From Planctomycetota bacterium (GTDB lineage Bacteria; Planctomycetota; Phycisphaerae; Sedimentisphaerales; Anaerohalosphaeraceae), in contig JAAYQH010000110.1 of NCBI GenBank assembly GCA_012519365.1, positions 1 through 19,597 of the forward strand: a stretch of 19,597 nt of DNA. Reading direction: 5' to 3'. Positions 6,793-19,561 of the stretch are shown piece after piece (within the stretch, counting starts at the first letter, position 1; each line of letters begins with the position of its first letter). The position numbers were made by a program, and so were the translations under genes. Under the pieces are notes generated by a model, which was not told the DNA's origin, made no database searches, and was given only the letters and a program-made list of their open reading frames with translations.

Positions 6793-8676
6793 ATGTTGCA
6801 TTTTTGGCGTGTGTTTATCGTATGCCTTGCGGGCGTTTTTTTATGCGCCCAAGTCGGCCAGGCGCAGCGGCAGATGGAACGTCTCAGCCGTGGGGTGGTG
6901 GCAATTCCTGCGGAAATCAACCAAGTATATGTCGGCTGGCGACTGTTCGGCACCGATGTGCCGGAGATTGCGTTTAATCTCTATCGCGTTACCGACGGCG
7001 GCGAGCCGCTCCGACTGAATGCTGAACCGCTTGTCAAAACCACCGATTTTGTTGATACAACGGTTGATTTGTCAAAATCCAACACCTATTTTGTGCGGCC
7101 TGTCCTGTCCGGCAAGGAGCAGCCGCCCAGCCGGTCGTTTGTGCTGCCGGCCGGCGCGGAGGTCAAGCCCTATCTGTCCATTCCGCTCAGAACGCCTGAG
7201 GGGTGTCGTGTCGGGGATGCGGCCGTGGGGGATCTGGACGGTGACGGCGATTATGAAATCGTCGTCAAACAGGAAATGCGTCCGCATGACAACTCCCATG
7301 AGGGTTATACCGGCCAGACCAAACTGGAGGCCTATAAACTGGACGGCACGTTTTTATGGCGAATCGATCTGGGCAAAAACATTCGCGAAGGGGCCCATTA
7401 TACGCCGTTTATTGTCTATGATTTGGACGGTGATGGTCGGGCTGAGGTCGCGGTACGTACCGCCGACGGCACGGTAGACGGAACCGGCAAAGTTCTCGGC
7501 GATCCCGATGCCGATTATCGCAATCCTCAGGGCAGAATCCTCGAAGGGCCGGAGTTTTTGACTATTTTCGAGGGACGCACCGGCAAAGCGCTGGAATCGG
7601 TGGATTTCTATCCCGCACGCGGACAGGTCAGCCAATGGGGTGACGAGGTGGGCAACCGCTCGGAACGGTATTTGGCGGCGGTGGCCTATCTGGATGGTCG
7701 CCGTCCCAGTCTGATTATGGCACGCGGATATTACGGGCCCAGGCCAGGCCGACCGGCCCGCAATGAGATTGCCGCCTTTAATTGGCGCGACGGGCGGTTG
7801 ACAAAACTATGGCTCTTTCGGGCCGCGGTGGGTATTTACGACGACGTCAACAAGGAATATGTCGGCCAGGGTAACCACAGTATTTCTGTTGCGGATTTGG
7901 AGGGCAATGGTCGGGATTCGATTATCTATGGGGCTGCGGTCATTAATCACGATGGGAGCGGGCGGTATTCGACTCAACTGGGGCATGGCGACGCCCAGCA
8001 TACGGCAAAAATGATTCCTGACGTGGACAAATTTCAAACGTTTTCGATTCACGAAAACCCAAACCATCCACACGGCATTAATGTTCGCGATACGGCTACG
8101 GGCAAGCTGCTCTGGAGTCGCCCCAGTTCGGATGTGGTACGTGGGATGGCTGCCGATATCGATCCGACCCATTGCGGCTATGAGATCTGGGCGGTCGGCA
8201 GGGGACTAAACGAATTGTATGATGCCGCGACCGGCCGGGTCGTGGCTGCCCGCCGTCCCCGAAGCTGCAATATGGCTGTCTGGTGGGACAGCGACCTGAC
8301 CCGCGAATTGCTCAACGGCACGCAAATTGAAAAGTGGAACCCCCGGACGCAGGATACCGAACTGCTGCTGGACGCCCGGCGCTATGGATGCCGATCGATC
8401 AACGGTTCGAAGGCCAATCCGTCTCTGTCGGCCGATATCCTTGGCGACTGGCGCGAGGAGGTCATCTGGCCCACCCGCGACCAGACGGAATTGCGGATTT
8501 TTACCACCACCCTTCCAGCTCAAAAGCGCATCTATACCCTGATGCACGATCCGACCTATCGACTCGGTGTTGTGTGTCAGAATGTCGGCTACAATCAGCC
8601 CCCGCATACCGGTTTTTATCTCGGCGCAGAAATGACCGATCCCCCTCGACCGCCGATCCATACAGGGGACCATTGA
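6793..8676 (+). CDS. Secreted rhamnogalacturonan lyase, PL11 family
   Basis: A 627-residue protein, about the length of PL11 rhamnogalacturonan lyases such as Bacillus YesW (about 620). These enzymes cleave the rhamnose-galacturonic acid backbone of rhamnogalacturonan I by beta-elimination. Residues 1-24 form a signal peptide (ending near GQA). The mature protein opens QMERLSRGVVAI and VYVGWRLFGTD, typical of the N-terminal beta domain of PL11. An eight-bladed propeller follows, with calcium-binding loops DLDGDGD (147-153) and DLDGDGR (210-216), and later GQGNHSISVADLEGNGRDSIIYGAA. The C-terminus is complete (GYNQPPHTGFYLG). The ATG is preceded by GGAAAGG at a slightly long but usable distance. 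It is probably exported to attack plant or algal pectin-like material. No transporter or rhamnose gene sits beside it. Confidence 0.9.
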   Translation: MLHFWRVFIVCLAGVFLCAQVGQAQRQMERLSRGVVAIPAEINQVYVGWRLFGTDVPEIAFNLYRVTDGGEPLRLNAEPLVKTTDFVDTTVDLSKSNTYFVRPVLSGKEQPPSRSFVLPAGAEVKPYLSIPLRTPEGCRVGDAAVGDLDGDGDYEIVVKQEMRPHDNSHEGYTGQTKLEAYKLDGTFLWRIDLGKNIREGAHYTPFIVYDLDGDGRAEVAVRTADGTVDGTGKVLGDPDADYRNPQGRILEGPEFLTIFEGRTGKALESVDFYPARGQVSQWGDEVGNRSERYLAAVAYLDGRRPSLIMARGYYGPRPGRPARNEIAAFNWRDGRLTKLWLFRAAVGIYDDVNKEYVGQGNHSISVADLEGNGRDSIIYGAAVINHDGSGRYSTQLGHGDAQHTAKMIPDVDKFQTFSIHENPNHPHGINVRDTATGKLLWSRPSSDVVRGMAADIDPTHCGYEIWAVGRGLNELYDAATGRVVAARRPRSCNMAVWWDSDLTRELLNGTQIEKWNPRTQDTELLLDARRYGCRSINGSKANPSLSADILGDWREEVIWPTRDQTELRIFTTTLPAQKRIYTLMHDPTYRLGVVCQNVGYNQPPHTGFYLGAEMTDPPRPPIHTGDH

Positions 8677-8767
8677 ATTTTGAATTGAGATCTTGGTACT
8701 CCTATAAAAATTGAAAATAGTTTGAAATTTTCTAAAGATTTTTCAACAATCCGGCCGATACGTTTCG

Positions 8768-8773
8768 TATAAT
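8768..8773 (+). promoter_or_regulatory. Consensus -10 box of the putative ncRNA
   Basis: A perfect TATAAT at 8768-8773 sits just before a region with no credible ORF but strong RNA structure. No good -35 hexamer is found at 16-18 bp; TTCAAC (8742-8747) is 20 bp away. The upstream 8700-8745 is very A/T-rich with several short A and T tracts, which could act like an UP element. The expected transcript start is around 8780. Confidence 0.5.
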
Positions 8774-8779
8774 AAAAGA

Positions 8780-8983
8780 AGAGCGAGTAAGATTCGAAAC
8801 AGCGTTTTAAGTGGCTCTTAATAAATGACCCAGAAGGTCATGCGGGCTGAGATCCGGCACGTGGGCAACGTGGTGCGGAACTACAAGGCAACAGGCAATT
8901 GTCCGGTGTGGGAGTCAAGGCAAAAACCGATAAGAGAAGAGCCATTCGAGGTTTTGGGAGAGCCGTACGGCTCTCCCTTTTTT
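8780..8983 (+). ncRNA. Putative stand-alone structured small RNA, family not recognised
   Basis: About 200 nt bounded by a TATAAT box and an intrinsic terminator, between the 3' ends of two converging genes, so it is not the leader of a neighbouring gene. TGGCTCTT (8812-8819) pairs perfectly with AAGAGCCA (8937-8944), closing a domain of about 130 nt. Inside I see hairpin A, ATGACC/GGTCAT (8825-8841). Hairpin B has CACGT/ACGTG with an outer CCG/CGG (8854-8878). A weaker hairpin C uses GGCAA (8887-8891) and TTG-T-CC (8899-8904). The SRP RNA core (GGAAG...AGCAG) and known riboswitch cores are not visible, and 6S RNA symmetry is lacking. The terminator hairpin could compete for the GGCTCT strand. 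Exact ends are estimated. An unknown family or a diverged known RNA are both possible. Confidence 0.5.
8956..8983 (+). terminator. Strong intrinsic terminator
   Basis: GGGAGAGCC (8956-8964) and GGCTCTCCC (8969-8977) form a perfect 9-bp stem with a GTAC tetraloop, directly followed by six T (8978-8983). This is a textbook plus-strand terminator. It most likely ends the ncRNA, and could also end read-through from the PL11 gene. The stem resembles the outer stem of group II intron domain V, but the internal GAAA-capped helix is absent and no reverse transcriptase is present. Confidence 0.8.
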
Positions 8984-9142
8984 ATGCGCTTCGGGTCAGC
9001 ATTTCAAAAAAGAGCAAATGCCTTTTTCTGCGTCAAAACAGTCCTTTTCTTTTTGGCTCGACCGGTCAGAAAGACCGAGCGGATTTCGACAAAGCAGCAT
9101 TTCTGCACAGCGACGAGGTACCCTTCGTGCCACCGTGCCGGC
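8984..9142. other. Convergent intergenic tail
   Basis: Between the ncRNA terminator and the end of the pqiC-like gene. GCATTT (8999-9004) and AAATGC (9016-9021) form a weak plus-strand hairpin followed by CTTTTT, a possible back-up terminator. A second hairpin near 9056-9080 (GGTC/GACC core with CTCG/CGAG flanks) has no T-run in either direction. I see no coding potential. Confidence 0.35.
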
Positions 9143-9781
9143 CTATGGAAACAGCGACTCAAGGGTCGCGTGGAATTGAGCGAACGCATCGCTGACGGCC
9201 TGACTCATTGCCACAACAACCTGTTCGGCGGTGGGACGGGGCGGCACACCAACTGCGGCCTCAAACGATTCATCCACTAAAATTCGGCTGCACTTGCACG
9301 AACGGTCCGTTGTAATCAGCACGAATCGCAGACGCACATAGGCCGAGGGGGAATGGGGATCGCGAAAATCGGCATAGAGTGCCTCCAGATGCGGTTCAAG
9401 AACAAGTTGTTCTGTCTGTTCGTCCAGCACTGAGGTCGCACACAGCACCAGTCCCACCGAGGGCAGCCAATCGTGCAGGGCCTGGCTGATCTGCTGGTCG
9501 GGGGGCACAAGAAACTCGTTGTAATAATCGCGTTCAAAGGTTGTCTCGCTGCGGCGATAAATCAAGCGGGTCCCGGAAAATGGCGACCGCACGGATACCG
9601 GCCGGACGCGACAACACACCGTCGGCTGAACCGCAAGCGGCGATGTATCGGGGGCAATGTCCAACAAATAAACAGCCTTGTTCGGCGGCGGCTGACGCAG
9701 CGGACCGCAGCCGGCGACAATGACTATAAGAGAGAGTAAACCCCACCACCGAACCCGAGGGACAAAGGCGATTTGTTTCAT
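9143..9781 (-). CDS. PqiC / ABC-transport auxiliary lipoprotein
   Basis: A 212-residue lipoprotein with signal peptide and lipobox ending at Cys25 (IVAGC). After a short proline-rich linker the domain begins NKAVYLLDI, then CCRVRPVSVRSPFSGTRLIYRRSETTFERDYYNEFLVPPDQQISQALHDWL. This is the pattern of the ABC_trans_aux / PqiC family: an early YxL strand, a central Y-R motif and YYNEFLVPPxxxI. In Gram-negative bacteria these lipoproteins sit in the outer membrane and work with MCE proteins in lipid transfer. Its ATG overlaps the stop of the mlaD-like gene by 4 bp (ATGA), so translation is likely coupled. It is the last gene of the minus-strand operon. Confidence 0.8.
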   Translation of the reverse strand: MKQIAFVPRVRWWGLLSLIVIVAGCGPLRQPPPNKAVYLLDIAPDTSPLAVQPTVCCRVRPVSVRSPFSGTRLIYRRSETTFERDYYNEFLVPPDQQISQALHDWLPSVGLVLCATSVLDEQTEQLVLEPHLEALYADFRDPHSPSAYVRLRFVLITTDRSCKCSRILVDESFEAAVGVPPRPTAEQVVVAMSQAVSDAFAQFHATLESLFP

Positions 9782-16245: not shown

Positions 16246-16791
16246 TTGCATAAAATGGACAGAAAAGGTCAATTAAATTCCGACCAGTTTGTCAGGCTGG
16301 TAACACAAAACCAAAAGAAGATTCTAGCGTTCATATTGTACTATGTCCCGATTTATTCGGATGCTGAGGATATTCTTCAGGAAACCCTTGCGACCTTGTG
16401 GCGTAAGTTTGACGACTATGAGATTGGCACCGATTTTCTTATGTGGGGCATCACCGTTGCGAGGTATGAGGTTCTTCGGCATTATCGCTCGCGCAAGACC
16501 GCGGGCAAATTTCATTTTGATGAGCGTTTGCAGGAGGTTATCGAGACTGAAACGCCGTCGCATCTGGATCGTTTTGATGATCGTATCGATACCCTCAGGC
16601 AATGTCTGAAAAAATTAAGCAGTAGCGAGACCACACTGTTGAATATGCGCTATGAACAGGAATTGACGTTCGCCAAAATCGGCTATCGGCTGGGGCTGTC
16701 GTCGGTGGCGGTGTTTAAGCGGATCGGCAAAATTCACGAACGCCTTGTTCACTGTATACGGCTGTATTTTGCCGGCGAGGAGCGCTTATGA
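16246..16791 (+). CDS. ECF-like sigma-70 factor, planctomycete/verrucomicrobial type
   Basis: A 181-residue sigma factor with region 2 (about 15-83; YSDAEDILQETLATLWRKF and the -10 recognition helix FLMWGITVARYEVLRHYR) and region 4 (about 117-172; LLNMRYEQELTFAKIGYRLGL as the helix-turn-helix). Regions 1.1 and 3 are missing, as in ECF factors. The wording resembles the Rhodopirellula/Verrucomicrobium sigma family that is encoded beside FecR proteins. I chose the TTG at 16246 because AGGGTGA (16233-16239) is six bases upstream; the ATG at 16255 would drop three residues and is 15 bases away. It overlaps the next gene by 4 bp (ATGA), so sigma and FecR are probably made together. Target promoters are unknown. 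Confidence 0.85.
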   Translation: MHKMDRKGQLNSDQFVRLVTQNQKKILAFILYYVPIYSDAEDILQETLATLWRKFDDYEIGTDFLMWGITVARYEVLRHYRSRKTAGKFHFDERLQEVIETETPSHLDRFDDRIDTLRQCLKKLSSSETTLLNMRYEQELTFAKIGYRLGLSSVAVFKRIGKIHERLVHCIRLYFAGEERL

Positions 16792-18473
16792 CCGCACCGT
16801 TGAACAACCGAACGCGGACGACGGCGCTGACGTTTAAATCGCTCGAAGGGCTATGCTCCGATGAAGAAACGCGCGAACTGGCCGTTATTTTGGCTCAGGA
16901 TGCCGAGGCGCGGGACTATTACTATGACAGTATCACTGCCTATATTGGGCTGAATTTCATGGGGATTCTTTCGGAACTGGAGGCGGCTGATTCGGCATTT
17001 CTTGACCAGCGATTGTGGCAGGCCCTGTCGGAAATCGAAAAGAGTGCGCCGGTTGCTGCGGTGTCCAAGACCGTCGAGCCGCCGCGGCCCGTGCTGGTTG
17101 AACCTGTTGCCCGCGAAAAAGCCGTGCATCGGGTTAATACGATGTCCTTTTATACAGCGATTGCGTCATTGGCGGCGGTGGTGTTGTTGCTGGTCTTTGT
17201 CCGCTTTGCGCCAATTACGGTATCGCGGGATGTGGCCACACTGATCGACAGCATTAATGCCCAGTGGGATGAGTCCAACGGCTCAATCCACAACGGCATG
17301 CGACTGATGACCAAGGTCGATCCGCTGTATCTGCGAAAGGGGTTTGCCCAGATTCTTTTTGACAATAACGCTCGTGTGACGGTGGAAGGGCCGGCAGAAT
17401 TTGAGATACTCGATAATGACCGTCTTAAATTGCATTATGGTCGGGCTTATTCGGTTGTACCACAGGAAGCGATGGGGTTTTCGGTGGTTACGCCGACAGC
17501 GCTGATTATTGATTTGGGCACGGAATTCGGCGTCCAGGCCGATCTGTACGGCGGCACAGAGCTGCATGTTCTTCGAGGCAAAACCACCCTTGTGGCCGGG
17601 CAGGCAGATGAAAAAGTCAGTTTGGTTGTGGATGAGGGGGCGGCCAAACGCATCACACACAGCGCCTCCCCGGTCGTCGATATTTCCCTGAATGACCGGA
17701 TGTTTGTGCGGCATATCAACTCTCGAACTCATTTTGTCTGGCGCGGACAGACGAGTTTGAATCTGGCAGATGTCGTCGGCGGCGGCGACGGTTTTGGTAC
17801 CGGATGTCTCGAATCTGCTATCGATCCGGCCACGGGGGAATACGGCGATTATCGTTCGGTGGATCGCCGCTCGGACGGGCAGTATGTGCCGGTGGAGTGG
17901 AACCGCTATATTGATGGGGTGTTTGTGCCGGCAGGGGGGGCGGATCAGGTCGTCAGCACGGCCGGGCATGTTTTTGAACAGTGCCCTGCGACCAACGGCG
18001 TGTATTATGTCGAAATCATTAACGGGTCGGGACGCTATCTTGGCGATTACCGGCCGGGCGAGCCTCTGGGGCAATTAGACGGCACGGTACACGGAACGGC
18101 CGATTATCCAAGTTTGTTTATGCATGCCAATACAGGTATTACCTTTGATCTGGATGCGATTCGGGACGCGATGCCGGGGATTTCTGTGACTGCCTTTACC
18201 GCCAAAGCGGGGCTGTCTTCCCGGGCGCCGCGCGAGGGGAACGCGGATTTTTGGGTGCTTGTTGACGGACAGGTGCGATTTTCGCGTCAGGGCGTTCGCG
18301 ACAAAGGGCTGGCGTTTGATATCACTGTTCCGCTGGCCAAGACGGATCGTTTTCTGACCCTTGTGACGACCGACGGTGGGGATGTTGATCGTCCCGGAAC
18401 GGAATTTGGGCTGGGGACCGATTCGGATTGGTGTGTGTTTGGCCGACCTGTATTGAAATTGAGTGAGCGATAA
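16788..18473 (+). CDS. FecR-domain membrane protein, likely anti-sigma partner
   Basis: A 561-residue protein with an N-terminal cytoplasmic helical part (about 20-85), one membrane helix (about 119-139), and a periplasmic FecR domain (about 180-270). The FecR domain includes GFAQILFDNNARVTVEGPAE, GRAYSVVP and VVTPTALIIDLGTEFGV. The C-terminal part (about 300-561) looks beta-rich and ends with LTLVTTDGGDVDR...SDWCVFGRPVLKL, reminiscent of NPCBM-type sugar-binding domains. In classic FecI/FecR systems the FecR protein holds or activates the sigma factor in response to an outside signal; here an added sugar-binding domain could sense glycan directly. This is inference. The ATG overlaps the sigma gene stop by 4 bp. 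A typical zinc-binding anti-sigma motif is not seen. Confidence 0.85.
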   Translation: MTAPLNNRTRTTALTFKSLEGLCSDEETRELAVILAQDAEARDYYYDSITAYIGLNFMGILSELEAADSAFLDQRLWQALSEIEKSAPVAAVSKTVEPPRPVLVEPVAREKAVHRVNTMSFYTAIASLAAVVLLLVFVRFAPITVSRDVATLIDSINAQWDESNGSIHNGMRLMTKVDPLYLRKGFAQILFDNNARVTVEGPAEFEILDNDRLKLHYGRAYSVVPQEAMGFSVVTPTALIIDLGTEFGVQADLYGGTELHVLRGKTTLVAGQADEKVSLVVDEGAAKRITHSASPVVDISLNDRMFVRHINSRTHFVWRGQTSLNLADVVGGGDGFGTGCLESAIDPATGEYGDYRSVDRRSDGQYVPVEWNRYIDGVFVPAGGADQVVSTAGHVFEQCPATNGVYYVEIINGSGRYLGDYRPGEPLGQLDGTVHGTADYPSLFMHANTGITFDLDAIRDAMPGISVTAFTAKAGLSSRAPREGNADFWVLVDGQVRFSRQGVRDKGLAFDITVPLAKTDRFLTLVTTDGGDVDRPGTEFGLGTDSDWCVFGRPVLKLSER

Positions 18474-18598
18474 GGACCGCTTCGTTCCGGCCGAGAGGGT
18501 GCCGATAGGACGAACTGAACAGCGGTATCAACAATGAAACAGGTTTTGGCGGGTGGTCCGTCAAAATTAAAGTAATGTTTTTTTTGTGGAGGTTTATG

Positions 18599-19561
18599 AT
18601 GAAAAGGAAAGTCCTGTTTTTGGCAGTGGCGGTCAGTATCTGTGCGACTCTTGCCCATGCCGGTACCGTGGCCTACTGGCGGTTTGAGGAAGGCCCGGAC
18701 GGCGCCCAAGTCTCACACGGCGGCCTGCCCGACGGTGAGTTTTATCCCGGTGTTGTTGATGTCAGCGGCAGCAACAACAACTTGTCCGTCTGGAACGAAA
18801 GCTGGGCCGGCTACATTTACCGCAGTGAAACGGCCTATTCGAAGGTTCCGCTGAACGGGTTTGAGAACAACTACAGCGTCAAGAACTCCGGCGGTTATCC
18901 GGCGATGTGGACCGATTCCAGCTCCAGCATCAGCAAGATTACCCCTGCGGCCTTTACGATCGAGGCCACGTTCAAGTTGGAAAACGGCGGCTACAAGACC
19001 ATCGTCGGACGCGACAGCCGAGGGTCCGTGACCCAGGGCGAAAACCCCAACGCTGATTTGGCGGCGCTGTATTTCCAGACGGTTCCCAATAACGGCTTTG
19101 CCATCAAGTTCTGCGATGTTTCCGGCTATTGGCACGAGGCAATCGCCCCGGAGAATTCCTACATTGGGTTTGATTGGGGGACCGATCCGGACGGCGAACA
19201 GGCTCCGTGGTACAGCATGGCCGCGGTGAGTGACGGCGCCACATTGTCGCTGTATCTGATTCAAATCGGCAGCGGCGAAGGCTGGAAACTGATTGCCCAG
19301 ACCGACCTGACCGCAAGCGGCAGCCCGAATACGGCGCTGACGGCCGGCACCGGTGACGGCAACGACTGGGATGCGGGCAACTGGACGGTCGGTCGCGGCC
19401 TCTATGCCGGCGGCCATGGCGATCGGGCCTATGGGTACATTGACGAGGTGCGGATCAGTGATTCAGCGCTGTCGGTCAGCGAGTTCCTGGTTCCTGAACC
19501 TGCGACGCTTGTTATTCTCGGTCTTGGCGGACTGGGACTGCTTAAACGCCGCACGCGTTAA
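18599..19561 (+). CDS. LamG-like secreted protein with PEP-CTERM sorting tail
   Basis: A 320-residue secreted protein. Residues 1-21 form a signal peptide ending AHA. The body (about 23-295) starts TVAYWRFEEGP, contains FTIEATFKL and YGYIDEVRISDSALS, and so matches the concanavalin-like LamG fold that binds sugars or proteins. The last 23 residues are a PEP-CTERM tail: VPEPATL, a hydrophobic helix and a KRR end, the signal for an exosortase that anchors or releases proteins at the cell surface. No exosortase gene is in the window. I chose the ATG at 18599, six bases after GGAGG (18588-18592); ATGs at 18596 and 18575 are in frame. It follows the FecR gene by 125 bp and is a likely target or partner of that sigma system. 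Confidence 0.88.
   Translation: MKRKVLFLAVAVSICATLAHAGTVAYWRFEEGPDGAQVSHGGLPDGEFYPGVVDVSGSNNNLSVWNESWAGYIYRSETAYSKVPLNGFENNYSVKNSGGYPAMWTDSSSSISKITPAAFTIEATFKLENGGYKTIVGRDSRGSVTQGENPNADLAALYFQTVPNNGFAIKFCDVSGYWHEAIAPENSYIGFDWGTDPDGEQAPWYSMAAVSDGATLSLYLIQIGSGEGWKLIAQTDLTASGSPNTALTAGTGDGNDWDAGNWTVGRGLYAGGHGDRAYGYIDEVRISDSALSVSEFLVPEPATLVILGLGGLGLLKRRTR

Follow-up and report, generated by a model that had tools for sequence, protein, structure and literature searches.

The window, that is the whole stretch of DNA analysed here, comprises 19,597 nucleotides (nt) of a Planctomycetota bacterium of the order Sedimentisphaerales (contig JAAYQH010000110.1, assembly GCA_012519365.1). Within it, two open reading frames (ORFs), 6793-8676 on the forward strand and 9143-9781 on the reverse strand, converge on a locus which very probably is an RNA gene. 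The upstream gene lies close to the RNA on the same strand and encodes a rhamnogalacturonan lyase of family 11. The RNA gene occurs once in its own assembly. An earlier note, made from the sequence without database searches, had described a stand-alone RNA between converging genes and had listed a TATAAT, a closing stem, hairpins and a terminator with a T6 run. The gene arrangement and each of these elements are borne out. In the following, G-numbers denote genomes, L-numbers fetched loci and f1-f7 the families of the order; G000 is the window's own genome and f1 its family. The locus contains these features:

8732-8737, forward strand: −35-like CTAAAG, exactly 17 nt ahead of CCGAT.
8755-8759, forward strand: −10-like CCGAT (GCCGAT at 8754-8759); [CT]CGAT is present in 71 of 92 upstream regions of homologues versus a shuffled mean of 12.8, and in 17 of the 30 from f1.
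8768-8983, forward strand: predicted transcript, with a 5′ end placed from the promoter (to within a few nt) and a 3′ end from the terminator.
8768-8773, forward strand: TATAAT, read directly in the sequence.
8811-8819, forward strand: 5′ strand of stem P1, pairing with 8937-8945; 97.5% of cells are paired in 84 sequences, with compensatory change in 6 of 8 consensus pairs.
8825-8841, forward strand: hairpin P2, six pairs with loop 8831-8835; 84.3% of cells are paired in the same 84 sequences, with compensatory change in 5 of 6 pairs.
8843-8929, forward strand: arm P3, interrupted helices and an apical region; compensatory change in 14 of 14 consensus pairs (84 sequences).
8883-8900, forward strand: apical segment beginning ACAAGGC, family consensus approximately ACAAGKCAGAUCGUAAUC, with several nearly invariant columns of alignment A4; a presumed contact site.
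8937-8945, forward strand: 3′ strand of P1, partner of 8811-8819.
8956-8983, forward strand: intrinsic terminator of 9 base pairs with a GTAC loop and T6; a similar hairpin follows P1 in most homologues.

The predicted product is a structured non-coding RNA (ncRNA) whose conserved fold, made of the P1 closing stem, the P2 hairpin and the P3 arm, is backed by covariation. At the core of P1 lies a perfect stem between TGGCTCTT (8812-8819) and AAGAGCCA (8937-8944), which is lengthened by a G-U pair between 8811 and 8945. In the terminator, the arms GGGAGAGCC (8956-8964) and GGCTCTCCC (8969-8977) enclose the GTAC loop, and T6 occupies 8978-8983. The window strand folds at −75.2 kcal/mol; dinucleotide shuffles average −57.0 (z −4.3), and none of 200 folds as well. 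Homologues were compared in A4, a MAFFT alignment of 84 sequences which was not fitted to the structure. Its consensus, covering the helices of P1, P2 and P3, has 86.3% of cells paired versus 80.0% in shuffles, and 25 of 28 pairs changed on both sides versus 16.3. The covariation score is 0.313 versus 0.203 for shuffles and at most 0.104 with the partners slid, although this last control is somewhat inflated because the consensus structure was derived from A4 itself. Covariation in the stems, which the earlier note had proposed to look for, is therefore clear. The fourth pair of P2 is non-standard in 47 of the 84 sequences. Sequence conservation, for its part, is found in the apical region and in the strand preceding P1.

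The locus matches no catalogued RNA family. The whole window gave no match to Rfam 15 at gathering scores, and a permissive scan of 8680-9010 returned three matches which we regard as chance (best E 0.53, on the terminator). Searching 20 homologue loci against Rfam yielded a single match, a tRNA in L094. The family is not described in the literature searched, a body of text which mostly leaves out subscription papers. With no Rfam match, homologues across the order and clear covariation, the suggestion of an undescribed stand-alone planctomycete RNA stands.

Of the 59 genomes first searched with BLAST, eight, the window's own included, contained relatives. These eight copies are nearly constant in length, with 176-178 nt including the terminator. 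Their alignment (A2) served to build the covariance model R1; the stretch of the window to which the homologues correspond is 8810-8948. R1 matches 26 of the 39 family genomes, and 16 of 19 among those with a completeness of 90% or more and a contamination of 5% or less. Across the order Sedimentisphaerales (class Phycisphaerae) it matches 82 of 161 genomes, or 43 of the 66 of good quality. A refined model, R2, matched 68 of 397 genomes of the class, all of them within the order and 15 beyond the R1 set; this core RNA is therefore present in no fewer than 97 of the order's 161 genomes. One copy is the rule (73 of the 82 R1-positive genomes), while G060 has four.

No core RNA was matched in families f3, f4 and f5, nor in any sampled genome of the class outside the order. 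Among 392 genomes of the phylum, clear matches fell only within the order; four others (E 0.002-0.01) were dropped, as their number is about that expected by chance in such a set. A sequence-pattern scan of named genomes returned 36 records: 35 planctomycete metagenome-assembled genomes (MAGs), several of them Sedimentisphaerales, and one Nitrospira MAG which we regard as a chance match. Viral contigs gave no match. Convincing members of the RNA family thus come from Sedimentisphaerales alone within the phylum.

The promoter probably lies at a different place from the one first supposed. The earlier note had pointed to the TATAAT, but this hexamer is hardly enriched upstream of the homologues (11 of 92; shuffles average 6.3). 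GCCGAT, by contrast, precedes 46 of 92 versus 2.0 in shuffles. A sigma-70 promoter at the TATAAT is therefore rejected as improbable, and the promoter more likely occupies 8732-8759. The −35/−10 pair in a loose form with a 17-nt spacer is present in 45 of 91 core upstream regions versus 0.1 in shuffles. Both elements resemble those of flagellin promoters in the same genomes, which match the sigma-28 consensus, TAAA-N15-GCCGATAA. The spacer is different: among 26 flagellin genes it measures 15 nt in 15 and 16 nt in three, and 17 nt in none. Judging from these sequence comparisons, CTAAAG-N17-CCGAT (8732-8759) is probably the conserved promoter; it has a strict 17-nt spacer and otherwise resembles sigma-28 promoters, a pattern clearest in f7 and weaker in f1.

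A strict version of the pattern, AAANNYTCAAG-N16-G[CT]CGAT, was scanned in 159 genomes of the order. It gave 100 matches in 64 genomes, and a reversed control pattern gave one. Just over half of the matches (54) lie immediately upstream of an RNA: 35 before the core RNA and 19 before a second RNA alone, which is described below. Forty of the other 46 were fetched and read by eye. They include four further core copies (L276, L278, L279 and L281), two of them in genomes where no copy had emerged from the model searches; others lie near ends of insertion sequences (IS), upstream of genes, or where a conserved coding sequence has its 3′ end. The products of these genes include matches to the FlgM, PilZ and sigma-54-activator families as well as lipoprotein-like proteins.

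Some of these loci deserve individual mention. L278 (G107:C257) holds a shortened variant of the core RNA which the model search missed and which retains the promoter motif. Promoter-like motifs near apparent IS ends, often at contig ends, occur in L267, L268, L274, L282, L291 and L300-L302; in L268 the motif precedes a DDE transposase gene. In L269, L273 and L275, all from f7, genes which look lipoprotein-like by eye follow a motif with the 17-nt spacer and are possible further regulon members. The products of L269 and L275 have no Pfam family above cut-off.

The 3′ end of the RNA exists in two forms. Most core copies have a simple terminator shortly after P1, but 16 of 93 carry instead a domain of ~ 100 nt with its own covarying stems and a final T-run. 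A terminator script assigned 71 of the 93 loci to the terminator class and 13 to the extended class and left nine unassigned; L044, L060 and L062 were then moved to the extended class by reading. Several of the script's terminator rows had caught a T-run within a loop or further downstream. In five of the loci remaining unassigned the hairpin lacks a T4 run, and L098 stops at a contig end. These data also bear on a switch hinted at in the earlier note, in which the GGCTCT strand of P1 would pair alternatively with the terminator. Such pairing is possible in the window and in many relatives, as the 5′ arm of the terminator reads AGAGC in 53 of 76 simple-terminator loci and AGAGT, which allows G-U pairing, in eight. 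It is impossible in the other 15, which have neither, and a general switch is rejected.

The ~ 100-nt domain leads to the second RNA. Its model, R3, matches 46 of 159 genomes of the order, all in family f7. Seventeen R3 loci outside the set of fused copies were scanned with R2: 16 have no core match, and L231 has one. In loci matched by the strict pattern, the promoter stands 24-110 nt before the R3 domain. This leaves no room for the core, so the domain also occurs by itself, as a second RNA preceded by a promoter motif of its own. The 17-nt spacer is present in 15 of 16 loci of this RNA, and twenty R3 loci gave no Rfam match. Examples are found in f7 genomes at L210-L230 (in L217 at about position 1500), with their own 17-nt-spacer motif. 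The core and the second RNA are fused in 16 loci. Six genomes with two core copies (G117, G125-G128 and G141) have one copy with a terminator and one fused, G079 has two fused copies, and G007 has two with terminator-like hairpins.

Which sigma factor could read this motif? A sigma factor of the FliA/WhiG family is found above cut-off in 146 of 159 order genomes, G000 included. In G037, G042 and G046 the match is far weaker (E about 1e-33) and below cut-off, and flagellin and the RNA were not detected there either. Sigma types were read from 16 fetched loci, for which part of the proteins were scanned with family libraries and the rest judged from translations. Seven loci (L306 and L313-L318) hold a WhiG-like type with dapF, a MinD-like ATPase and/or a protein weakly resembling FlgB close by; the window's own genome has it at G000:C290 (L316). 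Another seven (L305, L308-L312 and L319) hold a type adjacent to flhA, and L304 and L307 belong to neither main type. In five of its seven loci (L306 and L314-L317), a sigma-28-type motif with a 15- or 16-nt spacer stands ahead of the WhiG-like gene itself; in L316 it lies at about 2272-2298. The co-occurrence of sigma factor, flagellin and RNA is circumstantial evidence, consistent with the WhiG-like factor controlling the RNA.

A separate cluster of the window may be mentioned here. At 16246-19561, a gene for a sigma-70-family factor is followed by those of a FecR/NPCBM protein and of a protein with a laminin-G fold, a possible sigma/anti-sigma/target arrangement.

We consider it somewhat probable that the locus is a non-coding RNA gene of a family outside Rfam, controlled by a sigma-28-family factor and acting in trans as a regulator. 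The gene-like unit, the fold, the promoter motif, the terminator and the distribution are computed directly; the control and the action in trans are proposed from them. In this proposal, RNA polymerase with a FliA/WhiG-family sigma factor would transcribe the RNA, in many relatives alongside the second small RNA which shares the motif, and both would belong to a motility-linked programme. The RNA might act in trans on mRNAs or on a protein. The scaffold of P1, P2 and P3 would then offer two contacts, the apical segment with its conserved sequence and the purine-rich strand ahead of P1.

More tentatively, Sedimentisphaerales may possess a split sigma-28 system. The flhA-adjacent FliA would read the 15-16-nt spacers of the flagellins and of the WhiG-like gene, and the WhiG-like sigma factor would read 17-nt spacers, with the two structured RNAs, as single modules or fused, for its main targets. 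If so, the motility cascade would have an output layer made of the two RNAs.

Several observations weigh against sigma-28-family control and the link to motility. The motif evidence comes mainly from f7: of the 54 strict matches associated with an RNA, 53 come from this family and one (G008) comes from f1. The loose 17-nt form is present in only 6 of 30 f1 loci, the window copy counted, and in 2 of 11 f2 loci; the window's own genome has no strict match and its promoter meets the loose form only. Flagellin promoters have 15 or 16 nt where this motif has a 17-nt spacer, and the factor may therefore be another than FliA itself. In G045, G086 and G092, which carry the RNA and a sigma factor scoring 254-261 bits, no flagellin was detected at E 1e-15, which makes the flagella link indirect. 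Conversely, genomes of f3 and f5 and the f4 genomes G050 and G054 have a FliA/WhiG sigma factor and no detected RNA. Finally, the apical segment is not complementary to flagellin leaders in a coarse test (mean z 0.04 over 22 genomes), which leaves this pairing without support. For this test 23 genomes were chosen, one of which had no usable leader, with one flagellin each, and the pattern picking the segment shifts in some copies.

As an observation on the leaders themselves, six of them (L172, L177, L185, L186, L193 and L197) share, by eye, a TTGACAGGGCC or CCTGACAGGGGC motif shortly before the start codon, which possibly forms a hairpin.

Among other explanations, the most serious is that the RNA mainly binds a protein instead of pairing with mRNAs, for instance as a 6S-like decoy or scaffold for the RNA polymerase holoenzyme or as a ligand of an RNA-binding protein. 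We judge this possible but rather unlikely. The closed fold, a length that hardly varies among the first eight copies, and the conservation of the apical segment would suit a protein ligand, and bacteria with more than one 6S-like RNA exist. The 6S model (RF00013), however, has no match up to E 10 on 8680-9010, and canonical 6S RNA is located elsewhere, above cut-off, in 27 of 39 family genomes (in the window's own at G000:C80), on which grounds identity with 6S RNA is rejected. A sponge for CsrA is likewise discarded, since GGA motifs are depleted (2.04 per sequence versus 2.98 expected, for 92 sequences with mononucleotide shuffles).

That standard models have missed a housekeeping RNA, be it the RNA of the signal recognition particle (SRP), 6S RNA, tmRNA or RNase P RNA, is very improbable, even if the gene stands alone, is widespread in the order and is mostly in single copy, which speaks for it. 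The 6S gene is separate, as stated. The model of bacterial small SRP RNA (RF00169) has no match at the locus, and SRP RNA lies elsewhere in 34 of 38 family genomes, so SRP identity is rejected; it was not found in G000, an assembly 89% complete, but was found in three others of its genus. Moreover, the searches matched no core RNA in complete f4 genomes of the order or in the sampled class genomes outside it. The window contains no tRNA or tmRNA, whereas genome-wide tmRNA and RNase P RNA were not sought. The earlier note, too, had seen no SRP, tmRNA or RNase P core at the locus.

Equally improbable is a cis-acting leader, riboswitch or 3′-end element of a neighbouring gene. The lyase gene close upstream on the same strand speaks for such an element in the window, but across 92 loci the neighbours show all four kinds of orientation (28, 22, 18 and 15, with nine undetermined), none is conserved (the largest neighbour clusters comprise 13 proteins), and the RNA comes with a promoter motif and a terminator of its own. 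A riboswitch leader, already dismissed in the earlier note, is unlikely because no same-strand downstream gene is conserved among these loci. Predicted ORFs of at least 90 amino acids overlap the RNA in eight of the 92 and are regarded as spurious. Least credible of all is a short mRNA encoding a small protein from an ATG or GTG in P2: this start codon is present in context in 68 of 92 copies but absent in 24, the triplet sits in a stem, and the reading frames are not conserved: the shortest has 2 codons and the longest 91, one stays open up to where its stretch stops, and the commonest length, eight codons, occurs in 18 copies.

A regulatory RNA under sigma-28-family control, the explanation we prefer, can be addressed experimentally, because the fold, a motif which predicts the sigma class, the partner RNA and the natural fusions make expression and role directly testable. 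A sigma-28-type promoter class serving largely RNAs would be unusual. The fusion of two RNA modules may illustrate a route by which bacterial RNAs gain domains. To our knowledge, regulation in planctomycetes has been little explored at the RNA level.

How does this RNA compare with known systems? 6S RNA is of similar length, stands alone and has a closing stem. The planctomycete RNA differs from it (RF00013) by the P2 hairpin beside the closing stem, and by the lack of a model match, and 6S RNA has a gene apart from it in most genomes of the family.

Other possible parallels are small RNAs (sRNAs) of the flagellar regulon. In Campylobacter, CjNC1 and CjNC4 are described as sigma-28-dependent ncRNA paralogues with a proposed post-transcriptional role (PMC4626219). 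As ncRNAs under a flagellar sigma factor, they would be comparable to the planctomycete RNA in the control predicted for it. The planctomycete RNA is set apart from them by its ~ 200 nt, strong structure, order-wide distribution, 17-nt spacer and fusions. CJnc170 (FlmR), also from Campylobacter, is described as a FliA-dependent sRNA linked with motility; it would be similar in kind but belongs to a different phylum (PMC11187230). Sigma-28-dependent sRNAs of E. coli are described as regulators of flagella derived from untranslated regions (PMC10578931). The planctomycete RNA, in contrast, is preceded by a promoter motif of its own and sits in no conserved host gene. The likeness to all of them would lie in the kind of control alone, which is itself predicted here from promoter sequence. 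While sigma-28-dependent sRNAs as such are already known, the RNA of Sedimentisphaerales constitutes a new family with an unusual promoter variant and a fusion of modules.
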